From contig VGAE01000011.1 of the NCBI GenBank assembly GCA_016870975.1, positions 1 through 50,726 of the forward strand: a stretch of 50,726 nucleotides of DNA, written 5' to 3'. The notes under the pieces are model-generated. The model was not told where the DNA came from and searched no databases. It saw nothing but the letters and a program-made list of their open reading frames with translations. The translations under genes and the position numbers were made by a program. Source of the stretch: Actinomycetota bacterium (GTDB lineage Bacteria > Actinomycetota > Actinomycetes > Nanopelagicales > Nanopelagicaceae). Below are positions 785-18,042 of this stretch, in pieces (the first letter of the stretch is position 1; each line of letters begins with the position of its first letter).

Positions 785-1224
785 CTCTGTATGCAGCATA
801 TGGTTCGAATCTTGATCCAAGACAGATGCTGCAACGCGCGCCTCACTCTCCACATTTAGGAACTGGTTGGCTGCGAGGTTGGCGCCTAACTTTTGGTGGT
901 GAAGAAATCGGATGGGAAGGTGCTGTTGCAACTCTCGCTGAAGATGCCACCGCCAGCGTATTTGTCTCAATCTACGATCTGACTAGACAAGACGAACAAG
1001 CGCTCGATGAGTGGAAAGGAGTAACTACCAAGCTTTACTCAAAAATTAGAGTGCGAGTGGATACTTTAAATGGCGCTCAATTATGTTATGTCTATGTTCT
1101 TAATTCTTTTGAAGGCGGCACGCCATCAAATCGCTATTTGGAGATCATGATAAGTGCGGCTCTAGAGGCTGGTGCACCCGCTGATTACATCGATACATTG
1201 AAAGGATTTGGCGAATCAGAATGA
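781..1224 (+). CDS. Gamma-glutamylcyclotransferase-like (GGCT/AIG2 fold) protein
   Basis: 147 residues. It opens with AAYGSNLDPRQM, the YGSNL loop that binds the gamma-glutamyl group in the GGCT/AIG2 family, and contains an FVSIYDLTRQDEQALDEWKG segment typical of the fold. The family releases pyroglutamate (5-oxoproline) from gamma-glutamyl amines or peptides. Glutathione is unusual in actinobacteria, so the physiological substrate is open. It overlaps maf by 4 bp and the next gene by 4 bp (ATGA at both ends), so it is translationally coupled within the operon, but no functional link to the downstream sugar phosphate genes is evident. Confidence 0.8.
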   Translation: MTLYAAYGSNLDPRQMLQRAPHSPHLGTGWLRGWRLTFGGEEIGWEGAVATLAEDATASVFVSIYDLTRQDEQALDEWKGVTTKLYSKIRVRVDTLNGAQLCYVYVLNSFEGGTPSNRYLEIMISAALEAGAPADYIDTLKGFGESE

Positions 1225-2840
1225 TTTCCGCAAATTTGCGCGCTGCAGTAATTTCGTGGATTGGGGAGGATCCAGATCCCAAGACGCGTAATCAATTACA
1301 GAAATGGCTTGAGGAAGATGCGGTATCTGAAATTGAAAGTTGCTTCCAAGGATTTTTAGAGTTTGGAACTGCCGGGCTTCGAGGCGCGCTCGGACCAGGT
1401 CCATCAAGGATGAATCGTGCCGTTGTTACAAGGACGGCTCTTGGACTTGGCAAATTCATGAAAGATCGAAATCTTCGCAGCATCGTGATTGGTCGTGATG
1501 CTCGCTATGGATCTGAAGACTTCACTAGAGATACCGCTGAGATTATGAGTGGATTTGGCTTTGCTGTTTATGTCCTTCCCAGGCCCCTCCCAACACCAGT
1601 TCTGGCTTTTGCGGTAAAGAAGTTAGGTTGCGATGTGGGTGTAATGGTTACTGCTTCACATAACCCACCGCAAGACAATGGCTACAAAGTTTACTTAGGG
1701 GGTCGCGTTGATGGAATTGATTACAACGGTTCTCAAATAATTTCACCAACTGATTCCGCAATCTCAGAAGAAATATCTAAAGCCCCAAATCTAAATCTGG
1801 CAAAACGAGGTTTGGACTGGCAGATTGTTGGGGAAGAGCACATCGAAAGCTATATCACTGCTACAGCTTCTTTAATAAATCCTAAAACGCAAATTAAGAT
1901 TATCTACACCCCCCTTCACGGAGTAGGTAAGGAAATATTGGTAAAAGTTTTCGCACGTGCCGGTCTTGAAGTAAGCCTGGTGAGCGCTCAAGCCGAACCA
2001 GACCCAGATTTTCCGACGGTTGAATTTCCAAATCCGGAGGAACCTGGCGCTATTGATTTGTCCCTAAAGTTGGCCGTAGAACAAGATGCCGATTTAGTTA
2101 TTGCTAATGATCCAGATGCGGATCGCTGCGCTATTGCCATTAAAGATAATGGATGGCGCATGCTTCGAGGCGATGAAGTAGGTGCGCTTCTAGGCGAATA
2201 CTTAGCAAACAAATATCAAGGCAACTTAGTTTTCGCTAATTCAATAGTCTCTTCATCAATTCTCGAAAAAATTGCGAAGGCTCACCAGATCAAATTTCAG
2301 GAAACCCTAACTGGATTTAAATACTTATCAAAAGTAGAAGGTTTGAGATTTGGCTATGAAGAGGCGCTTGGGTATTCAGTAGATCCGGATTCGGTTAATG
2401 ACAAGGATGGCATCAGCGCAGCTGCAGTTCTCGCTGAGATAGCAGCCGAAAGGAAAAGCACGGGAAGTTCGATATCTGAAATGCTAAATGAGGTCTGGGC
2501 TAAGTACGGTTTTCACGGAACCCGACAGGTTTCAATTAGGACTTCTCACGTAAAAGAGATTACGAAGATCATGCAAAGTTTTCGCACTAACCTTCCTAAC
2601 AAGATTGGTGACTTCAAAGTTACAAAGTTCGATGATCTCGAGCATCCATCAAATGGCTTACCTCCCACAAATGGGGTTCGAATCTGGCTCGATGGGCAAT
2701 ACCGAGTTATCGTGAGACCCAGCGGTACTGAGCCGAAAGTTAAGTGTTATATCGAGGTGGTCACAGAGAATGAAACTGCCGCAAAACCAATTATTGATCA
2801 GATCGAACTCGTATTTCGCTCACTTATGAGGGTAGCGTAG
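1221..2840 (+). CDS. PGM2-type phosphohexomutase superfamily enzyme, probable phosphopentomutase
   Basis: 539 residues, within the alpha-D-phosphohexomutase superfamily. Its four active-site elements are visible: TASHNP with the phosphoserine at S146, the metal-binding DPDADR at residues 297-302, the sugar-binding YEEALGY near 375, and RPSGTEPK near 505 for phosphate. Long members of this subgroup (PGM2-like) convert ribose 1-phosphate and deoxyribose 1-phosphate to the 5-phosphates. It lies 4 bp before deoC and no DeoB-type phosphopentomutase is present in the window, so phosphopentomutase feeding DeoC is the best reading. Phosphoglucomutase or phosphomannomutase activity cannot be excluded. 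Confidence 0.85.
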   Translation: MISANLRAAVISWIGEDPDPKTRNQLQKWLEEDAVSEIESCFQGFLEFGTAGLRGALGPGPSRMNRAVVTRTALGLGKFMKDRNLRSIVIGRDARYGSEDFTRDTAEIMSGFGFAVYVLPRPLPTPVLAFAVKKLGCDVGVMVTASHNPPQDNGYKVYLGGRVDGIDYNGSQIISPTDSAISEEISKAPNLNLAKRGLDWQIVGEEHIESYITATASLINPKTQIKIIYTPLHGVGKEILVKVFARAGLEVSLVSAQAEPDPDFPTVEFPNPEEPGAIDLSLKLAVEQDADLVIANDPDADRCAIAIKDNGWRMLRGDEVGALLGEYLANKYQGNLVFANSIVSSSILEKIAKAHQIKFQETLTGFKYLSKVEGLRFGYEEALGYSVDPDSVNDKDGISAAAVLAEIAAERKSTGSSISEMLNEVWAKYGFHGTRQVSIRTSHVKEITKIMQSFRTNLPNKIGDFKVTKFDDLEHPSNGLPPTNGVRIWLDGQYRVIVRPSGTEPKVKCYIEVVTENETAAKPIIDQIELVFRSLMRVA

Positions 2841-2844: not shown

Positions 2845-3786
2845 ATGCGGGATTTAATCGATGGTAGCGAACGCTCGTTACTAACTTTTTTGGAAAATTT
2901 ACCCGGTGTAGACAAAGTCGGCGCCGATAGTCGGGCAGCAATGTTAGGCACGCGCAGCATTAAGACTTCCAGTAAAGCGATGGCTATTGATTTGGCAATA
3001 AGCATGATTGATTTAACAACTTTAGAGGGCGCCGATACGCCAGGAAAAGTTAGATCGTTGGCTGCTAAAGCCGTCCGCCCAGATCCAACTGATTCTTCAG
3101 TTCCTAGCGTTGGCGCAATCTGCGTTTACAACGACATGGTAGAAATTGCCCGAAAATATTTAGATGAGTTTGGCGGCTCTCATATTCCAGTTGCCGCAGT
3201 CTCTACCGCATTTCCATCCGGAAGAGCTTCAATGGCGGTGAAAGTTCAAGATACTAAAGATGCAATTGCCGCCGGTGCGAGTGAGATTGATATGGTGATA
3301 GACCGCGGTGCTTTTCTCTCCGGAAGATTAATGGAAGTGTTTGAAGAGATTAGAGAGATTAAGGAGGTTTGCTCAGATAGCGCTCACTTAAAAGTAATTT
3401 TGGAGACTGGAGAACTTGCCACTTACGACAATGTGCGACGCGCTTCTTACCTGGTTATGTTGGCAGGAGCTGACTTCATTAAGACTAGTACGGGAAAGGT
3501 TTCTCCAGCAGCGACTCCTTCGGTAGTTCTAGTGATGTTAGAGGCAGTCCGAGACTTCTATCGACTTACCGGCAGGAGAATTGGAGTTAAACCCGCTGGC
3601 GGAATCAGAACCACTAAAGATGCCATAAAACAATTAGTCTTGGTAAATGAAACAGCTGGAAGTGATTGGTTGAATCCAAAACTTTTTCGAATCGGAGCCA
3701 GTGCGCTATTGAATGATCTGCTGCTTCAACGAATGAAGTTGCGGACTGGCCATTACTCAAGCTCCAATTATGTGACGGTGGATTAA
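2845..3786 (+). CDS. deoC: Deoxyribose-phosphate aldolase
   Basis: 313 residues, longer than the roughly 220-260 of short DeoC types but normal for the long type. It cleaves 2-deoxyribose 5-phosphate to glyceraldehyde 3-phosphate and acetaldehyde. Visible catalytic elements are the Schiff-base lysine K213 in ADFIKTSTGK, the second lysine K249 in IGVKPAGGIRT, and HLKVILETGEL around K183. ATG at 2845 follows the mutase stop by 4 bp; the ribosome binding site is weak, suggesting coupling. Its stop overlaps the aldehyde dehydrogenase start by one base (TAATG), so the enzyme that would oxidise the released acetaldehyde is translated directly after it. Confidence 0.95.
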   Translation: MRDLIDGSERSLLTFLENLPGVDKVGADSRAAMLGTRSIKTSSKAMAIDLAISMIDLTTLEGADTPGKVRSLAAKAVRPDPTDSSVPSVGAICVYNDMVEIARKYLDEFGGSHIPVAAVSTAFPSGRASMAVKVQDTKDAIAAGASEIDMVIDRGAFLSGRLMEVFEEIREIKEVCSDSAHLKVILETGELATYDNVRRASYLVMLAGADFIKTSTGKVSPAATPSVVLVMLEAVRDFYRLTGRRIGVKPAGGIRTTKDAIKQLVLVNETAGSDWLNPKLFRIGASALLNDLLLQRMKLRTGHYSSSNYVTVD

Positions 3787-5240
3787 TGACGAATTTATTT
3801 GAATATGCTCCGGCTCCAGAATCTAGATCTGTTGTAAAAATCGAAAAAGATTACGACTTATTCATTGGTGGCAAGTTTGTCTCAGCTAGCTCTAAGAAGC
3901 GCTTAGCTACGATAAATCCAGCTACTGAAGAGATTTTAAGCAAAGTTGCCTTAGCTGATAGTAAAGATGTTGATCGCGCCGTGAGGGCGGCTAGAGCTGC
4001 TTTGAACAAGAGTTGGGCAAGAACCAAGCCAAAAGAGCGTGCAAAATATCTTTATCGGATAGCAAGAATTCTCCAAGAGCGCGCACGCGAATTTGCGGTT
4101 CTCGAATCGCTAGATAATGGCAAACCAATCCGCGAAAGTAGGGATGTTGATATTCCCCTGGCAGCTGCGCATTTCTTTTATCACGCAGGTTGGGCCGATA
4201 AATTAGAGTTCGCCGGTTTTGGAAATCGCCCCCGCCCTTATGGCGTCGTGGGTCAGATAATCCCCTGGAATTTCCCACTTCTTATGCTCTCTTGGAAGAT
4301 TGCACCAGCTCTCGCAACTGGAAATACCGTAGTTTTGAAACCAGCAGAGACAACACCATTAACTGCGCTTCTATTTGCTGAAGTATGCCAACAAGCCGGA
4401 CTTCCGGATGGAGTTGTAAACATAATCACCGGTGATGGAACAACTGGGGCGGCCCTGATTAACCATAAAGATATCGACAAGGTTGCATTTACCGGCTCTA
4501 CCGAAGTCGGCAAGTTAATTGCTCGTTCGATAGCAGAGCGTGGAATACCGGCTACTTTGGAACTTGGCGGCAAAGGCGCAAATGTGGTTTTTGACGATGC
4601 GCCGATTGATGAAGCAGTTGAAGGGATCGTAAACGGCATCTTCTTTAATCAAGGCCATGTTTGTTGCGCTGGATCTCGTCTACTCCTGCAAGAAAATATT
4701 GCTGATGAATTCTTACTCCGGTTAAAGGAGCGAATGGCAAGAATTAGAGTTGGTGATCCGCTTGATAAGAACACTGATTTAGGAGCCATAAACTCCAGCA
4801 CACAGCTAGCGAAGATTCGTGAAATTTCAGATACTGGAAGTAAAGAAGGTGCAACTCTTTGGAGCGCCCCCTGCTCGCTACCAACTAAAGGTTTCTGGTA
4901 TCCACCAGCAATCTTTACCGGAGTCACTCAAGCTCATCGAATAGCGCGAGAAGAAATATTTGGACCTATTCTCTCAATCTTGAATTTCCGCACGCCACAG
5001 GAGGCGATGGAGAAAGCAAATAACACTCCTTATGGATTATCCGCTGGACTTTGGACTGAAAAAGGTTCAAAGATTCTCTGGGCCGCACAACAATTGAAAG
5101 CCGGCGTTATTTGGGCAAATACCTTTAATAAATTCGATCCGGCAAGCCCATTTGGCGGTTATAAAGAATCGGGTTGGGGACGTGAGGGTGGTCGCCATGG
5201 TCTAGCTGCATATTTAAAAACTGGAGGGGCCAACTCATGA
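3786..5240 (+). CDS. NAD(P)-dependent aldehyde dehydrogenase, catalytic partner
   Basis: 484 residues, a full-length ALDH. Visible landmarks are PWNFP at 160-164, the cofactor lysine K185 in VVLKPAE, FTGST at 235-239, the general base E259 in LELGGKG, and the nucleophile C293 in NQGHVCCAGS. The likely job is oxidising acetaldehyde from DeoC to acetate; glycolaldehyde or other aldehydes made by the neighbouring aldolase operon are possible. It overlaps deoC by 1 bp and the truncated ALDH by 4 bp. The pair resembles a split version of the two-module ALDH16 proteins (inference). Confidence 0.93.
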   Translation: MTNLFEYAPAPESRSVVKIEKDYDLFIGGKFVSASSKKRLATINPATEEILSKVALADSKDVDRAVRAARAALNKSWARTKPKERAKYLYRIARILQERAREFAVLESLDNGKPIRESRDVDIPLAAAHFFYHAGWADKLEFAGFGNRPRPYGVVGQIIPWNFPLLMLSWKIAPALATGNTVVLKPAETTPLTALLFAEVCQQAGLPDGVVNIITGDGTTGAALINHKDIDKVAFTGSTEVGKLIARSIAERGIPATLELGGKGANVVFDDAPIDEAVEGIVNGIFFNQGHVCCAGSRLLLQENIADEFLLRLKERMARIRVGDPLDKNTDLGAINSSTQLAKIREISDTGSKEGATLWSAPCSLPTKGFWYPPAIFTGVTQAHRIAREEIFGPILSILNFRTPQEAMEKANNTPYGLSAGLWTEKGSKILWAAQQLKAGVIWANTFNKFDPASPFGGYKESGWGREGGRHGLAAYLKTGGANS

Positions 5241-6070
5241 GACTAGATGTGAAAAAGACTTATAAATTGTTTATCGACGGCGCCTTTCCGCGAAGTGAAT
5301 CAGGGCGCTCTTACGAAATTAAGAATTGGCGCGGCGCATTCATAGCTAACCCGGCTCAGGCGTCACGAAAAGATCTACGTGATTCTGTACTTGCAGCGAA
5401 GAACGCTCACCCTGGTTGGTCAAATGCCACTGCATTTAATCGTGGCCAGATTCTCTACCGAATAGCGGAGATGCTTGAAGGTCGAACTTCACAATTTATA
5501 GATGAAATAGTTGCCACCACAGGAGTCACGAGCAGCGCAGCGAAGCAAGAAGTAGCCGCTGCAATAGACCTCTGGGTTTGGTACGCTGGTTGGTGCGACA
5601 AGATCACATCTGTTAGTGGTAACAACAATCCAATCGCCGGCCCTTACTACAACTTCACAATTCCAGAATCCTTAGGAGTAATAGGAATTATTGCTGAAGA
5701 GAAAGAATCTCTTCTTGGATTAGTGCGAAGCCTGGCCCCAGTTATCGCTGGCGGTAATACCTCGGTCATTATTGCGAGTCAGAGTCGACCACTTGCCGCG
5801 ATAACGCTCGCCGAAGTATTAGCGACCTCCGACTTGCCTGCTGGAGTAGTAAATATCCTCACCGGAATTAAAACCGAACTTGCCCCATGGTTGGCTAGCC
5901 ATATGGAGATCGATGGACTGGATGTTTCCGGAATAGATAACGTCACCGAACTTCGAAAAAGTGGAGCAGAAAATCTAAAACGGATACATGCTTTTGAAAA
6001 AGATGTTTCGCCGGAGCGGATTTTTACATTTATGGAGTTTAAAACTATCTGGCATCCCGTCGGGATTTAA
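5237..6070 (+). CDS. Truncated, degenerate ALDH-like protein lacking the catalytic domain
   Basis: 277 residues that align by eye with the first half (the cofactor-binding part) of the preceding ALDH, then stop. The catalytic cysteine domain is absent. The cofactor site is also changed: the segment matching PWNFP reads AEEKES (153-158), the lysine loop reads IIASQSRP, and the FTGS position reads LDVSGI. It is therefore not an active dehydrogenase alone. A good Shine-Dalgarno (GGAGGGG) and the ATGA overlap argue that it is a real gene rather than decay. A regulatory or structural subunit of the ALDH upstream is most likely. It ends in a 4-bp convergent overlap (TTAA) with deoA. Confidence 0.85.
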   Translation: MRLDVKKTYKLFIDGAFPRSESGRSYEIKNWRGAFIANPAQASRKDLRDSVLAAKNAHPGWSNATAFNRGQILYRIAEMLEGRTSQFIDEIVATTGVTSSAAKQEVAAAIDLWVWYAGWCDKITSVSGNNNPIAGPYYNFTIPESLGVIGIIAEEKESLLGLVRSLAPVIAGGNTSVIIASQSRPLAAITLAEVLATSDLPAGVVNILTGIKTELAPWLASHMEIDGLDVSGIDNVTELRKSGAENLKRIHAFEKDVSPERIFTFMEFKTIWHPVGI

Positions 6071-7344
6071 TTAATCCGATCTAGTACCAATGGTAAGCGT
6101 TGGACTTTTCCATAAGTTACCGCGCCAGCAAGTGCTGACTTCGCTCTTTCAAATCGTGCTGATTCATCAGTGTGAAGAGTGAATAACGGTAACCCCTCTT
6201 TTATGGTGTCTCCGGGTTTCGCATGAATTTCAATTCCGGCACCAGCTTGAACTTTCTCTCCTTGGCGTTCGCGACCCGCTCCGAGTCGCCAAGCCGCAAT
6301 ACCAACTTGCAAGGCGTTCATAGTTGAGATTTCACCGCTGGCTTCAGCGTTGATTACTAGTTTTTCTCTAGCCGTAGGAAGTGGCGCATCGGGATTGCCG
6401 CCTTGAGCGGTAACCATGCGACGCCAATAATCCATAGCGCTGCCATCTCGAAGCGCTACTTCTGGATCTTTTCCAGATACACCGGCGGCATCAAGCATCT
6501 CTCGAGCAAAGATCAAAGTAAGTTCGACGACATCTTTCGGACCGCCACCCTGTAAAACTTCTATTGATTCTCTAACTTCAAGGGCATTTCCTGCAGTTAA
6601 GCCAAGCGGGACATCCATCGCAGTTACAAGCGCCCGGGTCTTTACGCCAGCGCGCTTACCAAGTTCAACCATAGTTTTAGCTAATTCTTTTGCTTGATCT
6701 GGAGCTGACATAAATGCGCCATTACCAGTTTTTACATCAAGGATTAGTGCGCCTGTTCCTTCGGCAATCTTCTTACTCATTATTGAGGATGCAATCAGTG
6801 GTATCGCTTGCACTGTTGCAGTCACATCACGTAGGGCATATAACTTTTTATCAGCCGGCGCTAAACCACTACCGGCAGCGCAGATAACCGCGCCGCAATC
6901 TTGCAATACTCTAAGCATCTCATCATTCGATAGCGACGCCCGCCAACCGACTATCGCTTCCATCTTGTCCAATGTCCCACCGGTATGGCCTAATCCACGT
7001 CCAGAAAGTTGCGGAACGGCGGCACCGCAGGCTGCAACTAACGGTGCAAGTGGCAAGGTGATTTTGTCACCGACTCCTCCGGTTGAATGTTTATCTACAG
7101 TTGGTCGAACTAGCAAATTCCAATTCATTCGCTCTCCGCTATTAATCATGGCATCGGTCCAACGAGAGATTTCGCGTGAATTCATTCCATTCAAAAGAAT
7201 TGCCATCAATAGCGCTGACATCTGTTCGTCCGCGACAATGCCACGAACATAAGCATCGATTACCCAATCAATCTGGGGATCGGTTAATTCGTTCTTATCT
7301 CTTTTGGCAGAGATAATTTCAACTGCGGCGAAAGGCTGGCTCAT
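6067..7344 (-). CDS. deoA: Thymidine / pyrimidine-nucleoside phosphorylase
   Basis: 425 residues. It phosphorolyses thymidine or deoxyuridine (and possibly uridine) to the base and (deoxy)ribose 1-phosphate. Signature segments are KHSTGGVGDK, SGRGLGHTGGTLDKMEAI, and KIAEGTGALILDVKTGNGAF, followed by the C-terminal alpha/beta domain ending in a hammerhead-like segment. I chose ATG at 7344 because it overlaps the cdd stop by one base (TAATG) and gives MSQPFAAVEII, the usual N-terminus; the upstream start at 7374 lies inside cdd. It is last in the minus-strand operon mtnA-aldolase-cdd-deoA and shares the palindromic stop TTAA with the opposing ALDH-like gene. Confidence 0.95.
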   Translation of the reverse strand: MSQPFAAVEIISAKRDKNELTDPQIDWVIDAYVRGIVADEQMSALLMAILLNGMNSREISRWTDAMINSGERMNWNLLVRPTVDKHSTGGVGDKITLPLAPLVAACGAAVPQLSGRGLGHTGGTLDKMEAIVGWRASLSNDEMLRVLQDCGAVICAAGSGLAPADKKLYALRDVTATVQAIPLIASSIMSKKIAEGTGALILDVKTGNGAFMSAPDQAKELAKTMVELGKRAGVKTRALVTAMDVPLGLTAGNALEVRESIEVLQGGGPKDVVELTLIFAREMLDAAGVSGKDPEVALRDGSAMDYWRRMVTAQGGNPDAPLPTAREKLVINAEASGEISTMNALQVGIAAWRLGAGRERQGEKVQAGAGIEIHAKPGDTIKEGLPLFTLHTDESARFERAKSALAGAVTYGKVQRLPLVLDRIN

Positions 7345-7733
7345 TAATTCAAATCTTTCGGACCAAATCCCCACGGAAGAATCTCAGTCATATTCTTCGC
7401 GCCATCTGGTGTGAGAAGTTCTAATTTCTCTCCACCGTGTTCGAAGAGTAATTGCCGGCAACGGCCGCAAGGAGACAGTAGATCTCCATTCTTATCCACG
7501 CAGACCGCGGCAATCAATCTTCCACCGCCACTCATAATCAATTCAGAGATGAGTGAACATTCCGCGCAGAGTGTCAATCCGTAACTTGCATTCTCGACAT
7601 TACAACCGCTGATGATGCGTCCATCGTCTACTTGTGCAGCGACTCCGACTGGAAATTTTGAGTATGGCGCATATGCTTTGCGCATCGCAAGTTCTGCCTC
7701 GCTCTTTAACTTATTCCAATCAATTGAACTCAT
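7344..7733 (-). CDS. cdd: Cytidine deaminase
   Basis: 129 residues, the size of the small tetrameric deaminases. It converts cytidine and deoxycytidine to uridine and deoxyuridine, feeding DeoA. The zinc site is the three-cysteine type: C56-A-E58 with catalytic E58, and C89 and C92 in SPCGRCRQ. NVENASYG binds the ribose. ATG at 7733 overlaps the stop of the aldolase fusion (ATGA); the stop overlaps deoA by one base. Placement between the aldolase and deoA shows that pyrimidine nucleosides are handled by the same transcript as MtnA. Confidence 0.96.
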   Translation of the reverse strand: MSSIDWNKLKSEAELAMRKAYAPYSKFPVGVAAQVDDGRIISGCNVENASYGLTLCAECSLISELIMSGGGRLIAAVCVDKNGDLLSPCGRCRQLLFEHGGEKLELLTPDGAKNMTEILPWGFGPKDLN

Positions 7734-9691
7734 CTTGGGAATCCTCCTGCTACGCCACCATCGACTGGAATTACTGAACCGGTTGTTCGCGATGATTCAT
7801 CGGAGAGCAGATAAGCAACGGAGCGTGCCACATCCTCAGAACGAACATGCACCTTTAAAAGATTCCGTTCTGCATAGAAATCCTCAAGCTCTTCTGGTTT
7901 GACGCCATGTTCCTTAGCTCGTTGTTCTCTCACGCCACCCTCCCAAAGTTTGCTGTTATCAAAAATAGCGTCGGGGTTTAATGCGTTGGCACGGATACCA
8001 GCAGCACCACCTTCTAAAGCTGCAATTCGCATTAGTTGAATCATCCCTGATTTCGATACGGAATAGCCACCAAATCCTGCTCCTGGTGCAAATGCATTCT
8101 TACTTGCGATGTAAACCAGACTACCGCCCATGCCTTGAGTGCGTAGCACCCTCATTCCATATTTAGTTAATAGGAATGCCGAAGTTAAATTAACTTCCAA
8201 ACCTTTCCGCCATGATTCAGGAGAAAGATCTTCAATTGTGCCTGCGACTGGAATACCGGCATTTAGAACCAATCCATCCAGCCCGCCAAAGTGCGAGATA
8301 GTCCCAGATATGGTCGACTCAACAATAGATTCAGTACTTTGATCGCCAACAATTAATAGCGGCTCTGAATACTTTCGCTCGCGCATCTCTTTTGCGGTCA
8401 CAGCAAGCCCATCTTTATCAAGATCGGCCAGAGTTAAGTTAGCTCCCAAACCTGCTAAATACAGGGCGATTCCACGACCAATTCCACTACCAGCGCCAGT
8501 TACTACATAAATCGCTCCTGCAAGTAGAGCTGGTTTGGGTTTCAATTTCAATTTGTAGAGCTCCATCGGCCAATAATCGAAACCAAAAATTTCGCTATCT
8601 GGCAGCGCCCGCGGTTTCGCGAAGCTATCTGCGACTAGAGCAGCAACCGAGTGGGAATGGAAGGCAATATCAGCCAACATCTTGGTTTCACTACTTGTTG
8701 TGGCCGCTGTAATTGCTCCTAGCCCTGGAACAAGAAATACTCGAGGATCGTTGCCATGGCTAACGTATCCCGGAGGCAAGAGCGAGCGATTCGCTTCAAA
8801 ATAATCGCTATATCGTTTCTGGTATAAAGTTACTGATTCTTCGAACGTATTTAGTGTGGTTACGCAAGACCAAGGTCTGATGCGGAGCATATGGTCAGCA
8901 CTCGAGGTGCCAGCTGCAATTACTTTAGGAAGATCTGGTCGATCCGCTACGGCTCTCAATCGTGTATCCGTTCTAAGAATTTGTCGCTTCCCAAGTTTGC
9001 CGCGCAATTTAAGTAGCAATTCTCTTATTTCAAATTCACTCAAATCTTGATGCTTAAACTCTGCTTTCGGTGGATTTTTAAGTGAATCGAGATACCTCTT
9101 TGCTTTAGCAACGGCAACCAAATTCTTCTCATAGCACTTATTGCTATCGTCATCCCAAACAATTAGTCCATGGTGCGCTAGAACTACGCACTCATAATCT
9201 TTAAGTTCTCCGACTGACTTTGATAATTGGAATCCAGGTCTGATCCAATCAACATAGGCAAAACCCTCGCCTAGCGCTTCTCTGACAGCCGCCCTGCCAT
9301 CTTCGTGATTAGTGAGTGCGCAGATTACGTCAGCATGGACATGATCGATATGGCGAGCCGGCAGAAATGCGTGAAGCAGAGTCTCAATTGAAGGTCGGCG
9401 CGCAGTTGGATCAACTAGCGCTCTTGTTACATAATCGACCATAGTTTCATCATCTAATTCATTCATCTTATTTAATGCGATTAACTCTTCAAGATATAGA
9501 GCTGGGTAATCGACCGCTTCACCATATTGCATATCGGCGCCTGAACCCTTTACCCAAAGCACGGCTCTATTTCGTCCTAGATGATCTTGAATCTCACCTT
9601 TTGCTGAAGTGTTTCCGCCGCCGTACACAACTAAATTCTGATCAGCGCCAAGTTTCTTAGATCGCTCAACTAGATTTTGCAATTCACTCAT
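7730..9691 (-). CDS. Bifunctional class II aldolase / short-chain dehydrogenase fusion
   Basis: 653 residues in two enzymes. Residues 1 to about 380 are a class II aldolase/adducin domain with zinc-ligand candidates H117 and H119 (DHVHAD) and H173-H174 (LAHHG). Residues from about 390 are a classical SDR with the nucleotide loop VVTGAGSGIGRG (396-407), NAG at 477-479 and the catalytic pair Y543/K547 in YSVSK. Proteins of this design are usually annotated as rhamnulose 1-phosphate aldolase/dehydrogenase, but no rhamnose isomerase or kinase is here. It overlaps mtnA by 4 bp, so a more likely substrate is the ketose 1-phosphate made by MtnA, split to DHAP and an aldehyde which the SDR half then reduces or oxidises (inference). 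Confidence 0.9.
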   Translation of the reverse strand: MSELQNLVERSKKLGADQNLVVYGGGNTSAKGEIQDHLGRNRAVLWVKGSGADMQYGEAVDYPALYLEELIALNKMNELDDETMVDYVTRALVDPTARRPSIETLLHAFLPARHIDHVHADVICALTNHEDGRAAVREALGEGFAYVDWIRPGFQLSKSVGELKDYECVVLAHHGLIVWDDDSNKCYEKNLVAVAKAKRYLDSLKNPPKAEFKHQDLSEFEIRELLLKLRGKLGKRQILRTDTRLRAVADRPDLPKVIAAGTSSADHMLRIRPWSCVTTLNTFEESVTLYQKRYSDYFEANRSLLPPGYVSHGNDPRVFLVPGLGAITAATTSSETKMLADIAFHSHSVAALVADSFAKPRALPDSEIFGFDYWPMELYKLKLKPKPALLAGAIYVVTGAGSGIGRGIALYLAGLGANLTLADLDKDGLAVTAKEMRERKYSEPLLIVGDQSTESIVESTISGTISHFGGLDGLVLNAGIPVAGTIEDLSPESWRKGLEVNLTSAFLLTKYGMRVLRTQGMGGSLVYIASKNAFAPGAGFGGYSVSKSGMIQLMRIAALEGGAAGIRANALNPDAIFDNSKLWEGGVREQRAKEHGVKPEELEDFYAERNLLKVHVRSEDVARSVAYLLSDESSRTTGSVIPVDGGVAGGFPR

Positions 9692-10698
9692 AGCGCTTCG
9701 CCCTCTTTAACACGATAAACCCTCTTGTCTGTGATTACCGCGGTTATGTATCTAGCGGGAGTTACGTCAAAAGCTGGGTTGTAAGTCTTTGAGCCAACCG
9801 GCGCCGTATTTACTCCTGCAAAAGAAGTTACTTCAGAATCAGAGCGGAATTCAATTTCAACACGGTCTCCGGAATCAATACTGCGATCAACTGTGGATTC
9901 AGGCGCAACAACCAAGAATGGAACCGCAACTTGATCTGCAGCGACGGCAACGGATAGCGAGCCTATTTTGTTCGCGCTATCACCATTTTTAGCGATGCGA
10001 TCTGCGCCAATCAATACCGCATCGATTAAGCCAGAGAAGAGGGCGCTAGCGGCCGCCCCATCTGGAAGTATTCGATACGGAATGCCTGCTTGTGCTAACT
10101 CCCAAGCGGTCAACCTTGAACCTTGTAGCAGTGGTCGGGTCTCGTCTGTGAAAACTTCCTCTATTAATCCGCGCGAGTGCAGTTCCCTCACAACGCCCAA
10201 CGCAGTTCCCCATTCGGTACTTGCCAGGGCTCCGGTGTTGCAATGAGTTAGAATTCGAAGTTTCTTCTCTCCCAATTTATTCACTAGGAAATCAGCGCCA
10301 ATTCTTCCCATCTCACGACAAGAGTTGGCATCATCATCCGCCAGTGCTAAAGCTTTCTCTAAAACTTTTTTAGATCCGCCTTCAATAAGCGGCTCTACTT
10401 GAGAGACTCCCCAAGCAAGATTTACGGCAGTAGGCCGGGCGTTCTTCAATTCTAAAATTGATTTCGCAATTGATTCTTTACTCCAATTTTCAGCTTCGGC
10501 ATTACGAAGAATTAGTGCGACACCTAGCGCGCCAGTCACCCCAAGGGCTGGTGCGCCGCGCACTGAGAGCCTCTGGATTGCTCCAACTAATTCTTTGGGA
10601 TCTCTAATTACGAGTTCACCAATCGTTCCGGGAAGTTTGGTCTGGTCAAGGAGATGGATGCTCCCACCATTAACTTCGCTCCAAGAGATCGTTCGCAT
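9688..10698 (-). CDS. mtnA: Methylthioribose-1-phosphate isomerase family protein
   Basis: 336 residues, full length for MtnA. The enzyme isomerises 5-methylthioribose 1-phosphate to the ribulose 1-phosphate form; relatives accept 5-deoxyribose or ribose phosphates. Visible are VRGAPALG (46-53), catalytic C153 in THCNTGALAS, and catalytic D233 in IGADRIAKNGDSANKIGS. It begins the operon mtnA-aldolase/SDR-cdd-deoA. The other classical methionine-salvage genes (mtnB, mtnC, mtnD) are absent in this window, so a full Met cycle is not indicated here. ATG at 10698 is 6 nt after a TAGGCT -10, so translation is probably leaderless. Confidence 0.92.
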   Translation of the reverse strand: MRTISWSEVNGGSIHLLDQTKLPGTIGELVIRDPKELVGAIQRLSVRGAPALGVTGALGVALILRNAEAENWSKESIAKSILELKNARPTAVNLAWGVSQVEPLIEGGSKKVLEKALALADDDANSCREMGRIGADFLVNKLGEKKLRILTHCNTGALASTEWGTALGVVRELHSRGLIEEVFTDETRPLLQGSRLTAWELAQAGIPYRILPDGAAASALFSGLIDAVLIGADRIAKNGDSANKIGSLSVAVAADQVAVPFLVVAPESTVDRSIDSGDRVEIEFRSDSEVTSFAGVNTAPVGSKTYNPAFDVTPARYITAVITDKRVYRVKEGEAL

Positions 10699-10903: not shown

Positions 10904-11935
10904 ATGTTCAAGCGCATTACAGCTGTACTAGCTGCATCTGCACTTGCGACCGTAGGTTTTGTTGCACCGTCACAGGCAGCATCAGAGGCAGACTGCGGTA
11001 AAGGAATTCGTCTATGCATCGGTCTCGTCACCGACACCGGAAAGGTTGATGACAAGTCATTTAACCAATCCGCTTGGAAAGGTGCACAAGATGGCGCGCA
11101 AGCAGTTGGTGGTTTCGCAAAATATATTGAAACTATCGATCCAAAAGACTATGCAAGCAATATCGGACAGTTTGCTACTAAGAGCTATGACGTAATTATT
11201 GGCGTCGGATTCTTGATGGCAGAGGCAATGACAACTGCAGCAAAGCAGTATCCAAAAATTAAATTTATCGGTGTCGATCAGTTCCAGGGTGCAACTATTT
11301 CCAACCTAACTGGATTGGTCTTCCCAGAAGATAAGGCTGGATTTCTTGCTGGTTATCTCGCTGGCCACCTAACGAAGTCTGGTAAAACTGGCGCAGTGCT
11401 TGGAACCGATGTCGTTCCACCAGTACGTTATTTCGGTGAGGGATATCGAAATGGCGTGGCATACGCTGCTATAGAGCTTGGTAAGAAATATCCAGCTACT
11501 CGACTCATCTACCACGCACCAGATAACGCATTCAACGACCCAGCATGGGGCGGTTCAACTGCACAGCAGTTACTCTCTCAGGGATTTGATGTGATCTTCG
11601 GAGCTGGTGGAAACACTGGTAACGGTGCTCTGCTCCGAATAGCTAAGAAGAAGAATGTCTATTGCATCGGTGTTGACTCTGATCAATGGGGAACTCTTCC
11701 TGAAGCGCGTCCATGTCTCGTCACTTCCGCAATGAAGTTGATTGATAAGGGCGTTGCCACTCTGATTCGACAAGCAAATAAGGGAACTCTCGCCGGCGGC
11801 AACTACTTTGGCGCTGTAGGGCTTGCTCCTTATCACGACTTCTCACGCAAGATCCCTGCTTCGGTTCAGAGCAAGGTAAAAGCGATTACTCCAAAGGTTT
11901 TAAATGGGACCGTCAAGACCGGAGTTAAGCTCTAA
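10904..11935 (+). CDS. BMP-family nucleoside ABC transporter, substrate-binding protein
   Basis: 343 residues. An N-terminal Sec signal peptide (about 25 residues, ending SQA-AS) is followed by a BMP/PnrA-type binding domain starting GLVTDTGKVDDKSFNQSAW, with a VGVGFLM-like segment and conserved GNTGNGALL near residue 240. The family binds nucleosides outside the membrane. No lipobox cysteine sits at the signal cleavage region, which is unusual for a Gram-positive binding protein. ATG at 10904 has a strong GAGGAG ribosome site. It is first in a plus-strand operon with two permeases, an ATPase and purine salvage enzymes. A hairpin follows the gene, probably letting it be made in excess. Confidence 0.92.
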   Translation: MFKRITAVLAASALATVGFVAPSQAASEADCGKGIRLCIGLVTDTGKVDDKSFNQSAWKGAQDGAQAVGGFAKYIETIDPKDYASNIGQFATKSYDVIIGVGFLMAEAMTTAAKQYPKIKFIGVDQFQGATISNLTGLVFPEDKAGFLAGYLAGHLTKSGKTGAVLGTDVVPPVRYFGEGYRNGVAYAAIELGKKYPATRLIYHAPDNAFNDPAWGGSTAQQLLSQGFDVIFGAGGNTGNGALLRIAKKKNVYCIGVDSDQWGTLPEARPCLVTSAMKLIDKGVATLIRQANKGTLAGGNYFGAVGLAPYHDFSRKIPASVQSKVKAITPKVLNGTVKTGVKL

Positions 11936-12039: not shown

Positions 12040-13104
12040 ATGAAATCTCAGAAGTCCAGTTCGCTATTACTTGGACCATTTCTAATTCCCGTCCTATCTG
12101 TAATTGTTGCTCTAGCAATTGGTGGCATCCTGGTTTACATGCAAGGATCAAATCCGTTGCTTGCTTATCGAGTTCTCTTTACAACTGCTTTTGGTTCTCT
12201 AGACGGAATAGCAACGACGCTGGCAAAAGCTACTCCGCTAGTTCTCAGCGGATTGGCGGTGGCAATCTGCCTTCGCGCTGGCTTATTTAATATCGGTGCA
12301 CAAGGCCAATTGATTTCAGGCGCGCTCGCCTCCGCTTGGGCGGGATATAACTTTGTTGGCCTTCCTATGTTTGTTCATATTCCGCTCGCTCTCTTGTTTG
12401 GCGCATTTTTTGGAGCTTTGGTCGCATTGATTGCAGGTGTTTTGAAGGCTTATCGAGGAGTCCATGAAGTCATAACCACAATCATGTTAAACAGTATTGT
12501 GATTGCGCTTGCCGATTACCTAGCGAGTACGCCTTTTAAAGAGCCAGATCAACCTTTAACTCGAACTCCCAAAATTGAGGATAGCGCAAGAATTCCTGAT
12601 GTATTTGGACTGCCACTTGGCTTCTTTATCGCCGTTATTGTTTCTTATATTTTCTGGTGGATTCTCAAGAACACGACAACCGGTTTCCGAATTGAAACTA
12701 ATGGGCGTAACAAGAACGCTGGTTGGTACGCTGGAATTTCCATAAAAAGAGTAATCATTTTGAGTATGGTGCTCGGCGGCGCCGTAGCAGGAGTAGCCGG
12801 TGCGATTGAAACGCTAAGTATTGTCGGCAGATTCGAACCGGCTTTTAACGCCGGCTTAGGTTTTGATGGAATCACAGTTGCACTCCTTGCTCGTGCAAAT
12901 CCTTTAGGCGTGATCCCGGCCGCGATTGTCATCGGCGGAATGAGAGCAAGCGGTTCAACTGTCCAATTTGAAGCGGGAGTTGCTCCAGAAATTGTTGATC
13001 TTTTATTAGCTTTGATTCTCTTCTTTGTCACCGCCCCACTCCTTGCCAAGTTCTTCCGGAAAAAGAGTGAGGAAGTTGCTGTTGCTAGCGGATGGGGTAA
13101 GTGA
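12040..13104 (+). CDS. BMP-type nucleoside ABC transporter permease 1
   Basis: 354 residues with about eight to nine hydrophobic membrane segments. The cytoplasmic loop CLRAGLFNIGAQGQL near residue 85 is the signature of the larger permease in BMP-type systems (YufP/NupP-like) and of the wider branched-chain permease family. ATG at 12040 has a GAGGAG ribosome site. The next gene overlaps its TGA by one base. With the second permease it should form the membrane channel for the preceding nucleoside-binding protein. Confidence 0.92.
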   Translation: MKSQKSSSLLLGPFLIPVLSVIVALAIGGILVYMQGSNPLLAYRVLFTTAFGSLDGIATTLAKATPLVLSGLAVAICLRAGLFNIGAQGQLISGALASAWAGYNFVGLPMFVHIPLALLFGAFFGALVALIAGVLKAYRGVHEVITTIMLNSIVIALADYLASTPFKEPDQPLTRTPKIEDSARIPDVFGLPLGFFIAVIVSYIFWWILKNTTTGFRIETNGRNKNAGWYAGISIKRVIILSMVLGGAVAGVAGAIETLSIVGRFEPAFNAGLGFDGITVALLARANPLGVIPAAIVIGGMRASGSTVQFEAGVAPEIVDLLLALILFFVTAPLLAKFFRKKSEEVAVASGWGK

Positions 13105-14084
13105 TGCGAATCCAAACTAGATATCTTGTGGCGATTTTCTCACTTCTTGCTTTTGCTTACTTTTATTCACGCGATGGTTTAGTAACGACTTCGGTCGTCT
13201 ATACCGCAATTCAATTTGCGCTACCGCTCGCTCTGGCAGCGATGGTTGGTGTTATGTGTGAACGGACTGGCGTTGTTAATATCGGGATTGAAGGAACGAT
13301 GCTGATCTCGGCCTTCTCAGCATTTTTTATTGGTGCCATAGTTCAGGACACAGTAATTGGTCTAGTCACCGGAATCGCGACTGGAATGGTCGTAGGATTA
13401 CTGCTGGCCTTGATGTCGGTATCTTGGAAAATGGATCAAATTATCGCTGGGGTAATCATAAACATTATGGCGGCTGGTCTTACTTCATTTCTTTACAGCC
13501 AAAATTATTCAATTCCATCTACGCTCTCTCCGATTGATATCCCGATAATTGGAACTTGGCCGATTATCGGACCGATCATCTCTTTCCATGGACCAATCAC
13601 TTACTTTGGAATACTTTTCATCATCGGTCTCTGGGTGGCTCTCTACAAAACGCCTTGGGGCTTGCGATCCCGCGCCGTTGGCGAGCATCCTTCTAGCGCG
13701 GACACTGCCGGAGTATCGGTAATTAAATTGCGATATCTCAACGTAACTTTGGCCGGAGCTGTTGGCGGCTTAGCGGGTTCATATCTTGCACTCGAAGCAG
13801 TTGGAATTTTCGAACGTGGCTTTACCGCTGGAAAAGGTTTTACGGCGCTAGCGATCATGATTTTTGGACGCTGGAATCCCTTGGGCGCATTTGCTGCCGC
13901 AATTTTCTTCGGTCTCGCGCAAGCTGTAACAAACCAATTAATGATTGATGAAGTTGTCCAGATTCCACAGCAATTTATAAATATGTTGCCATATGTTCTA
14001 ACGATCGCGATTTTGGCAATTTCTGCTGGAAAAGTGCGGCCTCCGGCAGCCGAAGGTATCCCTTATGAGAAGGAGAAGGCATGA
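13104..14084 (+). CDS. BMP-type nucleoside ABC transporter permease 2
   Basis: 326 residues, strongly hydrophobic throughout, with the loop CERTGVVNIGIEGTMLI near residue 50, typical of the smaller BMP-system permease (YufQ/NupQ-like). I prefer ATG at 13104, which overlaps the previous stop as TGATG; a GTG three bases earlier is also in frame. It ends in an ATGA overlap with the ATPase gene. Confidence 0.92.
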   Translation: MRIQTRYLVAIFSLLAFAYFYSRDGLVTTSVVYTAIQFALPLALAAMVGVMCERTGVVNIGIEGTMLISAFSAFFIGAIVQDTVIGLVTGIATGMVVGLLLALMSVSWKMDQIIAGVIINIMAAGLTSFLYSQNYSIPSTLSPIDIPIIGTWPIIGPIISFHGPITYFGILFIIGLWVALYKTPWGLRSRAVGEHPSSADTAGVSVIKLRYLNVTLAGAVGGLAGSYLALEAVGIFERGFTAGKGFTALAIMIFGRWNPLGAFAAAIFFGLAQAVTNQLMIDEVVQIPQQFINMLPYVLTIAILAISAGKVRPPAAEGIPYEKEKA

Positions 14085-15589
14085 GCCAACTCCTTGAAAT
14101 TGAAAATCTCACTAAATTTTTTGGCAGCGTTCATGCTAATGACCAGATCTCTCTATCAGTAGCGCCCGGTGAAATAGTTGCACTTCTCGGTGAGAATGGT
14201 GCTGGTAAGTCAACGCTAGTGAAATCTGTCTTTGGCTTAGTCAAACCTGATTCAGGGACTATTAAAGTAAAAGGAAAAGAGATTCCATACGGCGATACTG
14301 CGACCGCAATTACAAATGGAGTAGGTATGGTCCATCAGCATTTTCAACTCGTACCTGTGATGACTGTGACTGAGAATCTAATCCTCGGCGATGAACCAAC
14401 TTCAACTGGATTTATAAAAATGCGAAAGGCTCGAAAAGATGCCGAAGAGATTTCAGAGCGTTTTGGACTCGCAGTAAATCCTGATGCGGTGATTGAAGAT
14501 CTCCCCGTCGGTATGGCGCAGCGGGTTGAAATCTTGAAGGCGCTACGGCGCGATGTGAGCTTGCTTATTCTAGATGAGCCAACCGCCGTGCTGACTCCAC
14601 AAGAGACTGATGAACTATTGGAAGTATTGCGAAATCTTGCGAAGAAAGGTGTGGGGGTTCTCTTCATCACTCATAAGTTACGTGAGGTTATGGCAGTTGC
14701 AGATCGTGTTGTCGTCTTGCGCAACGGAAAATTAGTTGGAACGACTTCTCCAAAGGAAAGTAGTGAGGCGAAGTTGGCCCAGATGATGGTTGGAAGAGAA
14801 GTTGTTCTTGATGTTGAGAAAGATATTGCAACGCCAGGTCAGGCCGCTCTAATTGTCTCTGGAATGAGCGTTCTTGATGATCGTAAATTGGAGGCGGTAA
14901 AGGCGATCTCCTTCGAAGTGAAATCAGGTGAAATTCTGGGAATAGCCGGTGTTGAGGGAAATGGTCAGCGTGAGTTGGTTGAAGCAATCTGCGGCATGCG
15001 GAATCGCATTTCAGGAAGTGTTCGCTTACTCGGAAGCGATCTACCAAATCTAAATCCAAAGGCGGCTCATCAGGCCGGAATTTCGCATATTCCGGAGGAT
15101 CGAGAGAAGCATGGCCTAGTGAGCTCATATTCCATCGCTGAGAATCTCGTACTAAATCGATACGACGAGATACCTTTTGCGAATGGTTGGTTAAGAAACC
15201 TTTCTGCAGTTTCAGATAATGGCGCGAAACTAGTATCCGATTTCGATATAAGGACTCCTTCAGCCAGCCTTCCAGCAAGTTCACTTTCTGGCGGAAATAA
15301 ACAGAAGACCGTGGTTGCTCGCGAGTTAAGTCAGGACAGGAAAGTTGTTGTAGCTGCGCAACCAACGCGTGGTGTTGACGTTGGTTCAATTGAATTTATA
15401 CATAAGCAATTAATTGCTGCCCGAGATAAAGGAGCGGCAATACTTTTGGTATCGGCCGAATTAGATGAGGTGCTCTCGCTCTCTGATCGCATTGCTGTCA
15501 TTTATGGTGGAAAAATTGTGGCGACCTTTAATTCAAAGAGTGCCGACCGTGCTGAAATTGGCCGGTTGATGGCAGGTTCGCAAGCTTGA
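14081..15589 (+). CDS. BMP-type nucleoside ABC transporter, double ATPase
   Basis: 502 residues holding two ABC domains, as in RbsA/NupO/YufO-type ATPases. The first has Walker A GENGAGKS, a degenerate signature (LPVGMAQRVEI) and Walker B LLILDEPTAVL. The second has a degenerate Walker A (GVEGNGQRE), a good LSGGNKQK signature, and a Walker B-like VVVAAQPTRGVD. This asymmetry is normal for the family. It is preceded by AAGGAGAAGG and overlaps the permease by 4 bp, and overlaps the phosphorylase start by 4 bp (TTGA), linking uptake directly with phosphorolysis. Confidence 0.93.
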   Translation: MSQLLEIENLTKFFGSVHANDQISLSVAPGEIVALLGENGAGKSTLVKSVFGLVKPDSGTIKVKGKEIPYGDTATAITNGVGMVHQHFQLVPVMTVTENLILGDEPTSTGFIKMRKARKDAEEISERFGLAVNPDAVIEDLPVGMAQRVEILKALRRDVSLLILDEPTAVLTPQETDELLEVLRNLAKKGVGVLFITHKLREVMAVADRVVVLRNGKLVGTTSPKESSEAKLAQMMVGREVVLDVEKDIATPGQAALIVSGMSVLDDRKLEAVKAISFEVKSGEILGIAGVEGNGQRELVEAICGMRNRISGSVRLLGSDLPNLNPKAAHQAGISHIPEDREKHGLVSSYSIAENLVLNRYDEIPFANGWLRNLSAVSDNGAKLVSDFDIRTPSASLPASSLSGGNKQKTVVARELSQDRKVVVAAQPTRGVDVGSIEFIHKQLIAARDKGAAILLVSAELDEVLSLSDRIAVIYGGKIVATFNSKSADRAEIGRLMAGSQA

Positions 15590-16335
15590 CTTGCCGAATT
15601 GCGCTCCTGGCTGGAACTGGCTTTTACGACCTGCCAGCTCTGGCTGGCAAATCTCCGCAACGAATTGAGACACGTTACGGATCTGCTGAAATCACTATCG
15701 GTCAATGGCAAGGAGCCGAATTAGTTTTTCTTACTAGACATGGTGGCGGTCACTCAATCCCACCACATAAGATCAATTATCGAGCAAATATCCAAGCTCT
15801 GAAGGATCAAGGCGTTTCGGCAATTATTGCAATTAATGTGGTCGGTTGTATCGACACCACACTCGCGCCAGGAGATCTCACGTTAATTGAAGATTTCGTG
15901 GACTTCACCTCCGGACGAACAAGTACTTTTTTTGATGGCGAAGATGGCGTGCGACATATTGATATGACAAATGTTTATTCAAAAACGGTGCGGACAGCGC
16001 TCAGTAATGGAGCCAAGAAATTAGGGATTCCGCTTAGAGAAGGTGGAATTTACGCAGGATTTAATGGCCCGAGATTTGAGACTCCCGCTGAGATTCGGTT
16101 TGCTGCACTTGCAGGAGTAACTGTCGTGGGGATGACTGGCTGTCCAGAAGCGGCTCTAGCTAGAGAAATAGGAGTACCTTACGCTGCTATCGCGTTAATT
16201 GTAAATCCGGCCGCCGGCCTATTTGATGGTGAAATTAGCGAGGATGATATTAAAGATGTACTGGTTCAAGGTAAGGCTAAGACTTTAAGTGTTATTGAAG
16301 CCGCCCTTCCCGAATTGGTGTCGATATATGCCTGA
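15586..16335 (+). CDS. MTAP/PNP-family phosphorylase, probably methylthioinosine or 6-oxopurine type
   Basis: 249 residues. Family landmarks are LAGTGFYDLP at the N-terminus, phosphate-binding TRHGGGH (50-56), NYRAN (64-68), and GMTGCPEAALARE (182-194). The base-binding segment reads VNPAAG (206-211), with Asn at 207, as I recall for Pseudomonas aeruginosa methylthioinosine phosphorylase, rather than the Asp-rich TDYDCW of adenine-specific MTA phosphorylases. This predicts preference for hypoxanthine nucleosides (methylthioinosine, 5'-deoxyinosine, perhaps inosine). The start is TTG at 15586, overlapping the ATPase stop (TTGA) and giving the normal family N-terminus. It overlaps the deaminase gene by 8 bp. 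Confidence 0.88.
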   Translation: MTCRIALLAGTGFYDLPALAGKSPQRIETRYGSAEITIGQWQGAELVFLTRHGGGHSIPPHKINYRANIQALKDQGVSAIIAINVVGCIDTTLAPGDLTLIEDFVDFTSGRTSTFFDGEDGVRHIDMTNVYSKTVRTALSNGAKKLGIPLREGGIYAGFNGPRFETPAEIRFAALAGVTVVGMTGCPEAALAREIGVPYAAIALIVNPAAGLFDGEISEDDIKDVLVQGKAKTLSVIEAALPELVSIYA

Positions 16336-17620: not shown

Positions 17621-18042
17621 TGAATCCCGATTCATTGATTAAGTCATTAAAGCTTGAGCCACTCGAGGGCGAAGGCGGATTGTGGAGCCCGATGTATCGC
17701 GATGCTGAAAGCAACGCTATTTATTTCATGATGAGAGACCCAGATTTTTCGGCTTGGCATATTCTTGATGAACCAGAACTCTGGGTTCATCTCGCTGGTT
17801 CACCTATAACTCTTTTCACAATTGAGTCCTGCAAATTGCTAACAACCGAACTATCTAGAGAAGCTGGAAATTTTTCATATCGAGTTTCCGCAAAAACTTG
17901 GATGGCAGCTCGCCCCAACGGCGCCTGGTCACTTGCGCTCTGCGCTCTTACCCCGCCTTTTTCCCAGATGACACTTGGCAAATCAGCAACGTTACGAGAA
18001 GAATTTCCACACCTAGAGATACCAGAGTTATTCCATGAGTGA
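17620..18042 (+). CDS. DUF985 (Cupin_5) family protein
   Basis: 140 residues matching the DUF985 cupin pattern: LIKSLKLEPLEGEGG at the start, IYFMM...SAWHILDEPELWVHLAG in the first cupin strand pair, and WMAARPNGAWSLALCALTPPF in the second. The first motif keeps a WH and a glutamate that could bind metal. The biochemical role of the family is not established; a sugar-phosphate or nucleoside-derived ligand would suit this operon. ATG at 17620 overlaps the deaminase stop (TGATG), and it overlaps the SDR by 8 bp. Confidence 0.75.
   Translation: MNPDSLIKSLKLEPLEGEGGLWSPMYRDAESNAIYFMMRDPDFSAWHILDEPELWVHLAGSPITLFTIESCKLLTTELSREAGNFSYRVSAKTWMAARPNGAWSLALCALTPPFSQMTLGKSATLREEFPHLEIPELFHE

Follow-up and report, generated by a model that had tools for sequence, protein, structure and literature searches.

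A predicted dihydroxyacetone phosphate shunt with a fused class II aldolase/dehydrogenase in the nucleoside-salvage island of a freshwater acI actinobacterium

Introduction

What is an isomerase of the methionine salvage family doing beside an enzyme that usually carries a rhamnose label? The question is raised by a stretch of 50,726 nucleotides (GenBank assembly GCA_016870975.1, contig VGAE01000011.1; the whole stretch is called the window below) from a lake bacterium of the Nanopelagicaceae, the freshwater acI actinobacteria. It is contig C11 of an 81-contig metagenome-assembled genome (MAG) of 1.45 Mb, 88% complete and with 5.2% contamination. On its minus strand an mtnA-like gene overlaps a gene that encodes a class II aldolase fused to a short-chain dehydrogenase/reductase (SDR), and the operon runs in the order mtnA, fusion, cdd, deoA:

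9688..10698, minus strand: mtnA-like isomerase (P0002), 336 amino acids (aa); TIGR00512 match, motifs of Cys153 and Asp233
7730..9691, minus strand: fused class II aldolase/SDR (P0001), 653 aa; Aldolase_II and SDR domains
7344..7733, minus strand: cdd, cytidine deaminase (NCBIfam models), in the operon with mtnA and the fusion
6067..7374, minus strand: deoA, pyrimidine-nucleoside/thymidine phosphorylase (NCBIfam models), in the same operon

The overlaps are 4 bases between mtnA and the fusion, 4 between the fusion and cdd, and 31 between cdd and deoA. A preliminary description of the window had placed the system at 7730..10698 and read it as a dihydroxyacetone phosphate (DHAP) shunt whose last two steps are carried by one polypeptide. 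The overlap of mtnA with the fusion gene was confirmed and the extent holds for that pair, but not as the end of the operon, to which cdd and deoA also belong. The shunt reading is supported at the sequence level by gene order, protein families, active-site conservation, co-occurrence, a natural swap of aldolases, entry genes, and negative searches for MtnB, RhaA and ARD. The operon is probably a DHAP shunt for 5'-methylthio- and 5'-deoxynucleosides, situated within a nucleoside-salvage island.

Genomic partners of the fused gene

Two types of fusion occur in the family, one resembling P0001 and the other RhaEW, the L-rhamnulose-1-phosphate aldolase/L-lactaldehyde dehydrogenase. A sample of 121 Nanopelagicaceae genomes (fusion threshold E <= 1e-50) contained a fusion in 47, comprising 24 genomes with the P0001 type (two as fragments only) and 26 with the RhaEW type (some as fragments), three genomes having both. 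MtnA was found in 28 genomes, namely in all 24 with the P0001 type and in four others, and in none of the 23 with a RhaEW-type fusion only. The comparison of 24/24 with 4/97 gave a Fisher p of 1.5e-21, uncorrected for relatedness; the counts were taken from the genome searches and the genomes were treated as independent, though they are related. In 23 of the 24 genomes mtnA lies beside the P0001-type fusion on the same contig, and in the remaining one (G202) the fusion begins at base 10 of its contig.

RhaA was detected in 12/121 genomes, in eight of them no more than 250 bases away from a fusion of the RhaEW type; the other four have the pieces on different contigs (two) or no fusion over the threshold (two). 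In G175, which holds both paralogues, the RhaEW-type gene has RhaA as its neighbour and the P0001-type gene has MtnA, so that this genome is an internal control. An annotated RhaEW plasmid cluster likewise has rhaS and rhaI near the fusion.

A scan of genome contigs with a single-protein query, which covers close relatives only, provided 45 named loci; several of their record titles name Bifidobacterium breve, Streptomycetaceae or Clavibacter bins, which were taken as MAG labels. In 43 of these loci mtnA immediately precedes the fusion gene on the same strand, and in the two exceptions (L091 and L093) the contig ends within the fusion gene, so the pairing is not due to chance.

A stand-alone aldolase in place of the fusion

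The four genomes that have MtnA without a P0001-type fusion are informative about the reaction after MtnA. In one of them (G297) mtnA is at a contig end. In the other three (G231, G275 and G242) it is followed by an open frame of 221-223 residues, which in G231 and G275 stands between mtnA and cdd-deoA. All three frames hit models of class II aldolases with scores under every cut-off listed, and the one that was searched against solved structures (G231, locus L095) has as its best PDB match 6BTD, E 3.1e-24, which is the structure of DrdA (PMC6079011).

The surrounding operons are nearly the same. MtnA is 96% identical between G231 and the fusion-bearing locus L088, and likewise between G275 and G270, whose operon also bears the fusion. 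At the DNA level L095 and L088 share 93.5% identity over the 9.8 kb that lead up to the swap and 96.2% over the 6 kb beyond it, the values for L096 (G275) and L105 being 89.6% before and 96.1% after. The fused and the stand-alone aldolases show weak similarity only (blastp E 1.8e-5 and 1.4e-4). On the MtnA tree the partner must have changed between fused and stand-alone form three times, and well-supported branches make two of these changes unavoidable; this tree and that of the fusions were made quickly, with SH-aLRT supports only. The same operon place is thus taken by either a fused or a stand-alone aldolase. Since a stand-alone class II aldolase replaces the fusion after mtnA, aldol cleavage would be the conserved step after MtnA, and the SDR half would be replaceable. 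The swap is the strongest evidence indicating such a step, and the near-identical operons offer a ready-made functional test.

Properties of the two core proteins

P0002 passes the salvage_mtnA model TIGR00512 (373.2 bits, cut-off 279) and is far below the ribose-1,5-bisphosphate isomerase model TIGR00511 (141.7 versus a cut-off of 314.1). The motifs around Cys153 and Asp233, residues which we take to be catalytic, were found by pattern count in 45/45 distinct MtnA orthologues; pattern counts here and below were made on open frames from stop to stop, using distinct sequences only.

P0001 consists of an Aldolase_II domain (residues 6-195), a middle region and an SDR domain (about 390-650). A fold search with the whole model returned SDR structures only among the matches listed; the N-terminal 385 residues were searched separately, and residues of about 209-385 had no match among the structures listed, a lack that does not in itself speak for a new fold. 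The aldolase half has His117, His119, His174 and Glu103, and the SDR half has N501-S530-Y543-K547 together with Asp423. By its motif Glu103 is presumably the catalytic Glu of FucA and DrdA, and Asn501 a member of the SDR tetrad. The canonical tetrad hints that the SDR may act as an alcohol dehydrogenase and not, like RhaW, as an oxidiser of aldehydes. In DrdA the catalytic Glu is Glu76 (PMC6079011).

Is P0001 nevertheless an ordinary enzyme of L-rhamnose breakdown, its place beside mtnA being incidental? It does have the architecture of RhaEW, and the NCBIfam models that it matches best are those for RhaEW. However, it is under the cut-off of all 11 'bifunctional aldolase/SDR' models among the 25 NCBIfam families listed (for example TIGR02632, 490.5 versus 567.75, and NF006190, 519.6 versus 1014), so the label 'rhamnulose-1-phosphate aldolase' is not earned, as the preliminary description had suspected.

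Comparison of sequences leads in the same direction. In a class sample of 197 genomes (fusion threshold E <= 1e-60) 70 contained a fusion, and more than 65% identity to P0001 was found in the window's genome and four family-mates only, the remainder of the class sample, which includes the RhaEW-type fusions, being 32-37% identical. In a plasmid collection all 21 RhaEW-type records were less than 36% identical. A tree was made from the 68 loci with a single tblastn stretch of more than 600 residues, others being left out; after L062 was dropped because of a stop and identical rows were merged, 60 rows remained, of which the 41 of P0001 type are set apart from the rest by a branch with SH-aLRT 99. 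His117, His119, His174, Ser530, Tyr543, Lys547 and Asp423 are invariant in 60/60 fusions. Glu103 is present in 41/41 P0001-type rows, whereas the other fusions have Asp in 17/19 and Glu in 2/19; Asn501 is likewise present in 41/41, the others having Met in 17/19 and Asn in 2/19.

The two other fusions with Glu and Asn (L011 and L024) have 2-oxoacid-dehydrogenase-like genes as neighbours. A third aldolase/SDR type, in L046 and L047, also has Glu and Asn as in P0001, and its neighbours encode a lipoyl acyltransferase (E2) in L046 and a transketolase-like E1 beta in L047.

A genome search for rhamnose genes had been set beforehand as a check on the shunt reading. No match to RhaA (PF06134) was found in the window's genome, the same search detecting RhaA in 3/14 known genomes; RhaB was not searched for and RhaI-type isomerases were not separately tested. 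With context, clade and model cut-offs all against it, the rhamnose reading was rejected as very improbable.

Even less credit can be given to the view that MtnA serves classical methionine salvage (MtnB-MtnW/MtnX or MtnC-MtnD) encoded elsewhere in the genome, a search for which had also been set beforehand. What speaks for this view is that P0002 passes the methionine-salvage MtnA model. ARD (MtnD) had no match in 121/121 family genomes, in a search that detected it in 5/14 known genomes and over the cut-off in 2; MtnB had no match in the window's genome, and MtnC was not searched for. P0001 is the only Aldolase_II match of the genome, so that no MtnB is left. The candidate was rejected, and the absence of mtnB and mtnD, first noted for the window alone, extends to the genome for MtnB and to the family sample for ARD.

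The nucleoside-salvage island and the proposed pathway

A gap of 205 bases separates mtnA from the divergent genes of an ABC importer. This Bmp/Nup-type transporter, with the phosphorylase and the deaminase that follow it, belongs to the same island as the mtnA-fusion-cdd-deoA operon:

10904..11935, plus strand: Bmp/PnrA-like binding protein of the importer (domain match)
12040..13104, plus strand: importer permease, first (domain match)
13101..14084, plus strand: importer permease, second (domain match)
14081..15589, plus strand: importer ATPase (domain match)
15586..16335, plus strand: S-methyl-5'-thioinosine (MTI) phosphorylase family; NF006599, 249 bits, cut-off 223
16289..17620, plus strand: amidohydrolase, 5'-methylthioadenosine (MTA)/S-adenosylhomocysteine/5'-deoxyadenosine deaminase-like; below the cut-offs of all 25 NCBIfam models listed
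17617..18042, plus strand: Cupin_5 (DUF985); after the deaminase gene in 12/13 nucleoside-type loci
18035..18721, plus strand: second SDR, after the cupin gene (domain match)
1221..2840, plus strand: phosphohexomutase/phosphopentomutase-like; below the cut-offs of all 7 NCBIfam models matched
2845..3786, plus strand: deoC, deoxyribose-phosphate aldolase (NCBIfam)
3786..5240, plus strand: aldehyde dehydrogenase family (NCBIfam)
5237..6070, plus strand: 277-aa protein corresponding to the N-terminal half only of aldehyde dehydrogenases (NCBIfam)

In the proposed pathway 5'-methylthio- or 5'-deoxyadenosine, either imported or made internally, would be converted by the deaminase (16289-17620) and the MTI-type phosphorylase (15586-16335) into a 5-substituted ribose 1-phosphate, which MtnA would isomerise to the corresponding ribulose 1-phosphate. 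The aldolase half of P0001 would then split this to release DHAP together with either methylthioacetaldehyde or acetaldehyde, and the NAD-type SDR half would reduce or oxidise the released aldehyde on the same polypeptide. The substrates, the fate of the products and the direction of the SDR reaction are what we infer from the genes present. This outline agrees with the preliminary description, from which the deaminase/phosphorylase entry and the cdd-deoA half were absent.

The aldehyde dehydrogenase (3786..5240) is a possible fate of the released aldehyde. The half-length gene (5237-6070) adjoins a full-length aldehyde dehydrogenase gene in related clusters too. In 12 of the 13 loci of nucleoside type the genes for Cupin_5 and the second SDR (17617-18721 in the window; identities from about 30%) lie 3' of that for the deaminase, and their products are candidates for handling a methylthio aldehyde or alcohol. 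A tRNA scan of the window found none, and Rfam gave one match in it, msiK at 21089, outside the island. A promoter scan found 2 sites against a mean of 6.7 in shuffles, i.e. fewer than in shuffled sequence.

Which sugar enters the shunt

The 45 loci contain two kinds of entry module, never both within the stretch covered. The MTI phosphorylase/deaminase was found in 13 and methylthioribose (MTR) kinase in 8, and the one kinase checked (L081) passes TIGR01767 with 387 bits (cut-off 275). The window has the deaminase-like protein and the MTI-type phosphorylase in place of an MtnK or MtnP entry; a genome-wide search for MtnK was not made. The operons of L070 and L075 have a Peripla_BP_4/BPD_transp_2 importer, a kinase and mtnA, and much resemble an annotated cluster of sugar ABC transporter, mtnK and mtnA in S. 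meliloti. Five radical SAM matches in the window's genome could be suppliers of 5'-deoxyadenosine. Taken together the evidence favours 5-deoxy- and 5-methylthioribose 1-phosphate as the likely substrates, originating from internal 5'-deoxyadenosine or imported nucleosides.

Several observations weigh against this assignment. Neither module was found in 24/45 loci, many of them short stretches, but some of about 22 kb (L061, L062, L067 and L094). No match to spermidine synthase was found in the window's genome, which makes an internal supply of MTA doubtful. The amidohydrolase stays under the cut-off of every curated deaminase model listed, and the genome is only 88% complete and about 5% contaminated. 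At what we presume to be the 5' site of the phosphorylase, a position where purine-nucleoside phosphorylases (PNPs) have His, 16/17 distinct orthologues have Met or Ile, and Glu is found only in the window's protein and its nearest relative, L050; the signals from this site are mixed. The presence of cdd and deoA in the operon, finally, points to ribose or deoxyribose 1-phosphate.

The last two points lead to the strongest rival, a shunt for ribose 1-phosphate itself. Uridine, cytidine and purine nucleosides would yield ribose 1-phosphate through DeoA, with DeoD, the MtnA homologue would convert it to ribulose 1-phosphate, and P0001 would release DHAP and glycolaldehyde, to be taken over by the SDR or by the neighbouring aldehyde dehydrogenase; such a route would be similar to the last part of the haloarchaeal pathway, minus the bisphosphate steps. 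The importer divergent to mtnA is of nucleoside type, deoA and cdd each occur in 11/45 loci among reshuffled clusters, and a ribulose-1-phosphate aldolase and a glycolaldehyde reductase have been shown in haloarchaea (PMC9700705). This rival has to contend with the MTR kinase of sister operons, the characterised kinase DrdK being without detectable ribose activity (PMC6079011), and with the fact that the fusions from loci of the kinase type and from others have 56-69% identity to P0001 and share one clade with those of nucleoside-type loci. The mutase-like gene beside deoC offers an ordinary route to ribose 5-phosphate, and no bacterial ribose-1-phosphate isomerase appeared in the titles and abstracts of the literature surveyed. 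With sister operons encoding an MTR kinase, a phosphorylase of the MTI type in the island and a DeoD PNP encoded separately in the window's genome, the ribose 1-phosphate reading was demoted and is considered rather unlikely. MtnA and the aldolase could also serve both ribose 1-phosphate and the 5-substituted ribose 1-phosphates.

Relation to known systems

The DHAP shunt of E. coli, R. palustris and R. rubrum (MtnK or MtnP, MtnA, Ald2 and alcohol dehydrogenase) is the closest model, with MtnA preceding a class II aldolase, DHAP and an aldehyde as products (predicted in our case) and clustered genes; in the E. coli locus L110, genes resembling those for the kinase, MtnA and the aldolase follow the mtnK-mtnA-ald2 order known from publications, whereas E. 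coli K-12 is without the shunt. The known entries of the shunt are Pfs with MtnK, or MtnP (PMC10986504). The predicted acI variant would be new in two respects: the window's entry pair is a deaminase and an MTI-type phosphorylase, and a single RhaEW-like fusion takes the place of Ald2 and a separate dehydrogenase. The titles and abstracts surveyed contained neither MtnA with a fused aldolase/SDR nor an acI DHAP shunt, which is a weak negative.

DrdK-DrdI-DrdA of Bacillus thuringiensis, for the disposal of 5-deoxyribose, has the same order of steps (PMC6079011), and DrdA is the nearest solved structure to the L095 copy of the aldolase that replaces P0001. P0001 differs in being fused to an SDR, in being nearest to the RhaEW type in sequence and in its place among pyrimidine salvage genes. 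With RhaEW (PMC3870299) it shares the succession of aldolase, middle region and SDR, whereas its partner is MtnA rather than RhaA or RhaI, its Glu103 and Asn501 replace the commoner Asp and Met, and its scores are sub-cut-off. The RhaEW of C. aurantiacus formed no DHAP when NAD+ was left out (PMC3870299). The haloarchaeal non-carboxylating pentose bisphosphate pathway also directs nucleoside ribose through a class II aldolase to DHAP and a two-carbon aldehyde, which is reduced (PMC9700705), but the TIGR00511 score shows that P0002 is not its ribose-1,5-bisphosphate isomerase.

RuBisCO-like proteins in sister operons

The MTA-isoprenoid shunt of R. rubrum and R. palustris, with RLP1, has a parallel in sister operons where a RuBisCO-like protein (RLP) accompanies MtnA and the fusion. 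An RLP is present in 26/45 loci, for example in L075:15664-20335, L078:11896-14989 and L081:11934-16246, and the N and C parts of a split transketolase in 15/45 and 16/45. The RLP motifs KPMG and KDDH were found in 25/25 distinct copies; pattern counts gave 0/16 for the transketolase motif and 4/25 for the RLP His-Pro. The one RLP searched, that of L078 at 13886-14989, has 3qfw as its nearest solved structure, which we take to be R. palustris RLP1, although a literature look-up gave no confirmation. The acI operons differ from the MTA-isoprenoid shunt in that no RLP match was found in the window's genome or in 14 other sampled genomes of its genus, and in that many of them add the split transketolase.

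In R. palustris the MtnA product goes down both the Ald2 and the RLP1 branches (PMC5893883). It is tempting to speculate that in many acI operons too this product may be a branch point, cleavage by the fusion proceeding side by side with 1,3-isomerisation by the RLP, a possibility which at present is on the doubtful side. In locus L103 (G199:C13:1-14000), from a genome 99% complete, the split transketolase and the RLP lie at the contig start, with no MtnA or fusion match.

Some sister operons (L067:6382-8142 and L034:11433-13193) have additional genes upstream of mtnA, for an apionate-lactonase-like protein (the L034 copy scoring 260 bits, cut-off 750), an oxidoreductase resembling IolG and one more SDR, a hint that another sugar may enter there.

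Biological significance

If the DHAP shunt for 5'-methylthio- and 5'-deoxynucleosides is true, a rhamnose-type bifunctional enzyme would have been recruited in acI bacteria to salvage S-adenosylmethionine by-products or nucleoside sugars, and fusions of this kind can be misannotated as 'rhamnulose-1-phosphate aldolase'. It also draws attention to the RuBisCO-like proteins of the sister operons. Should the branch exist, 5-deoxyribulose 1-phosphate would give 1-deoxyxylulose 5-phosphate, an isoprenoid precursor, and ribulose 1-phosphate would give xylulose 5-phosphate, a direct transketolase substrate, providing a bypass through which nucleosides or imported pentoses would enter central metabolism. 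The operon itself suggests a route by which acI cells may reclaim carbon from 5'-deoxynucleosides.

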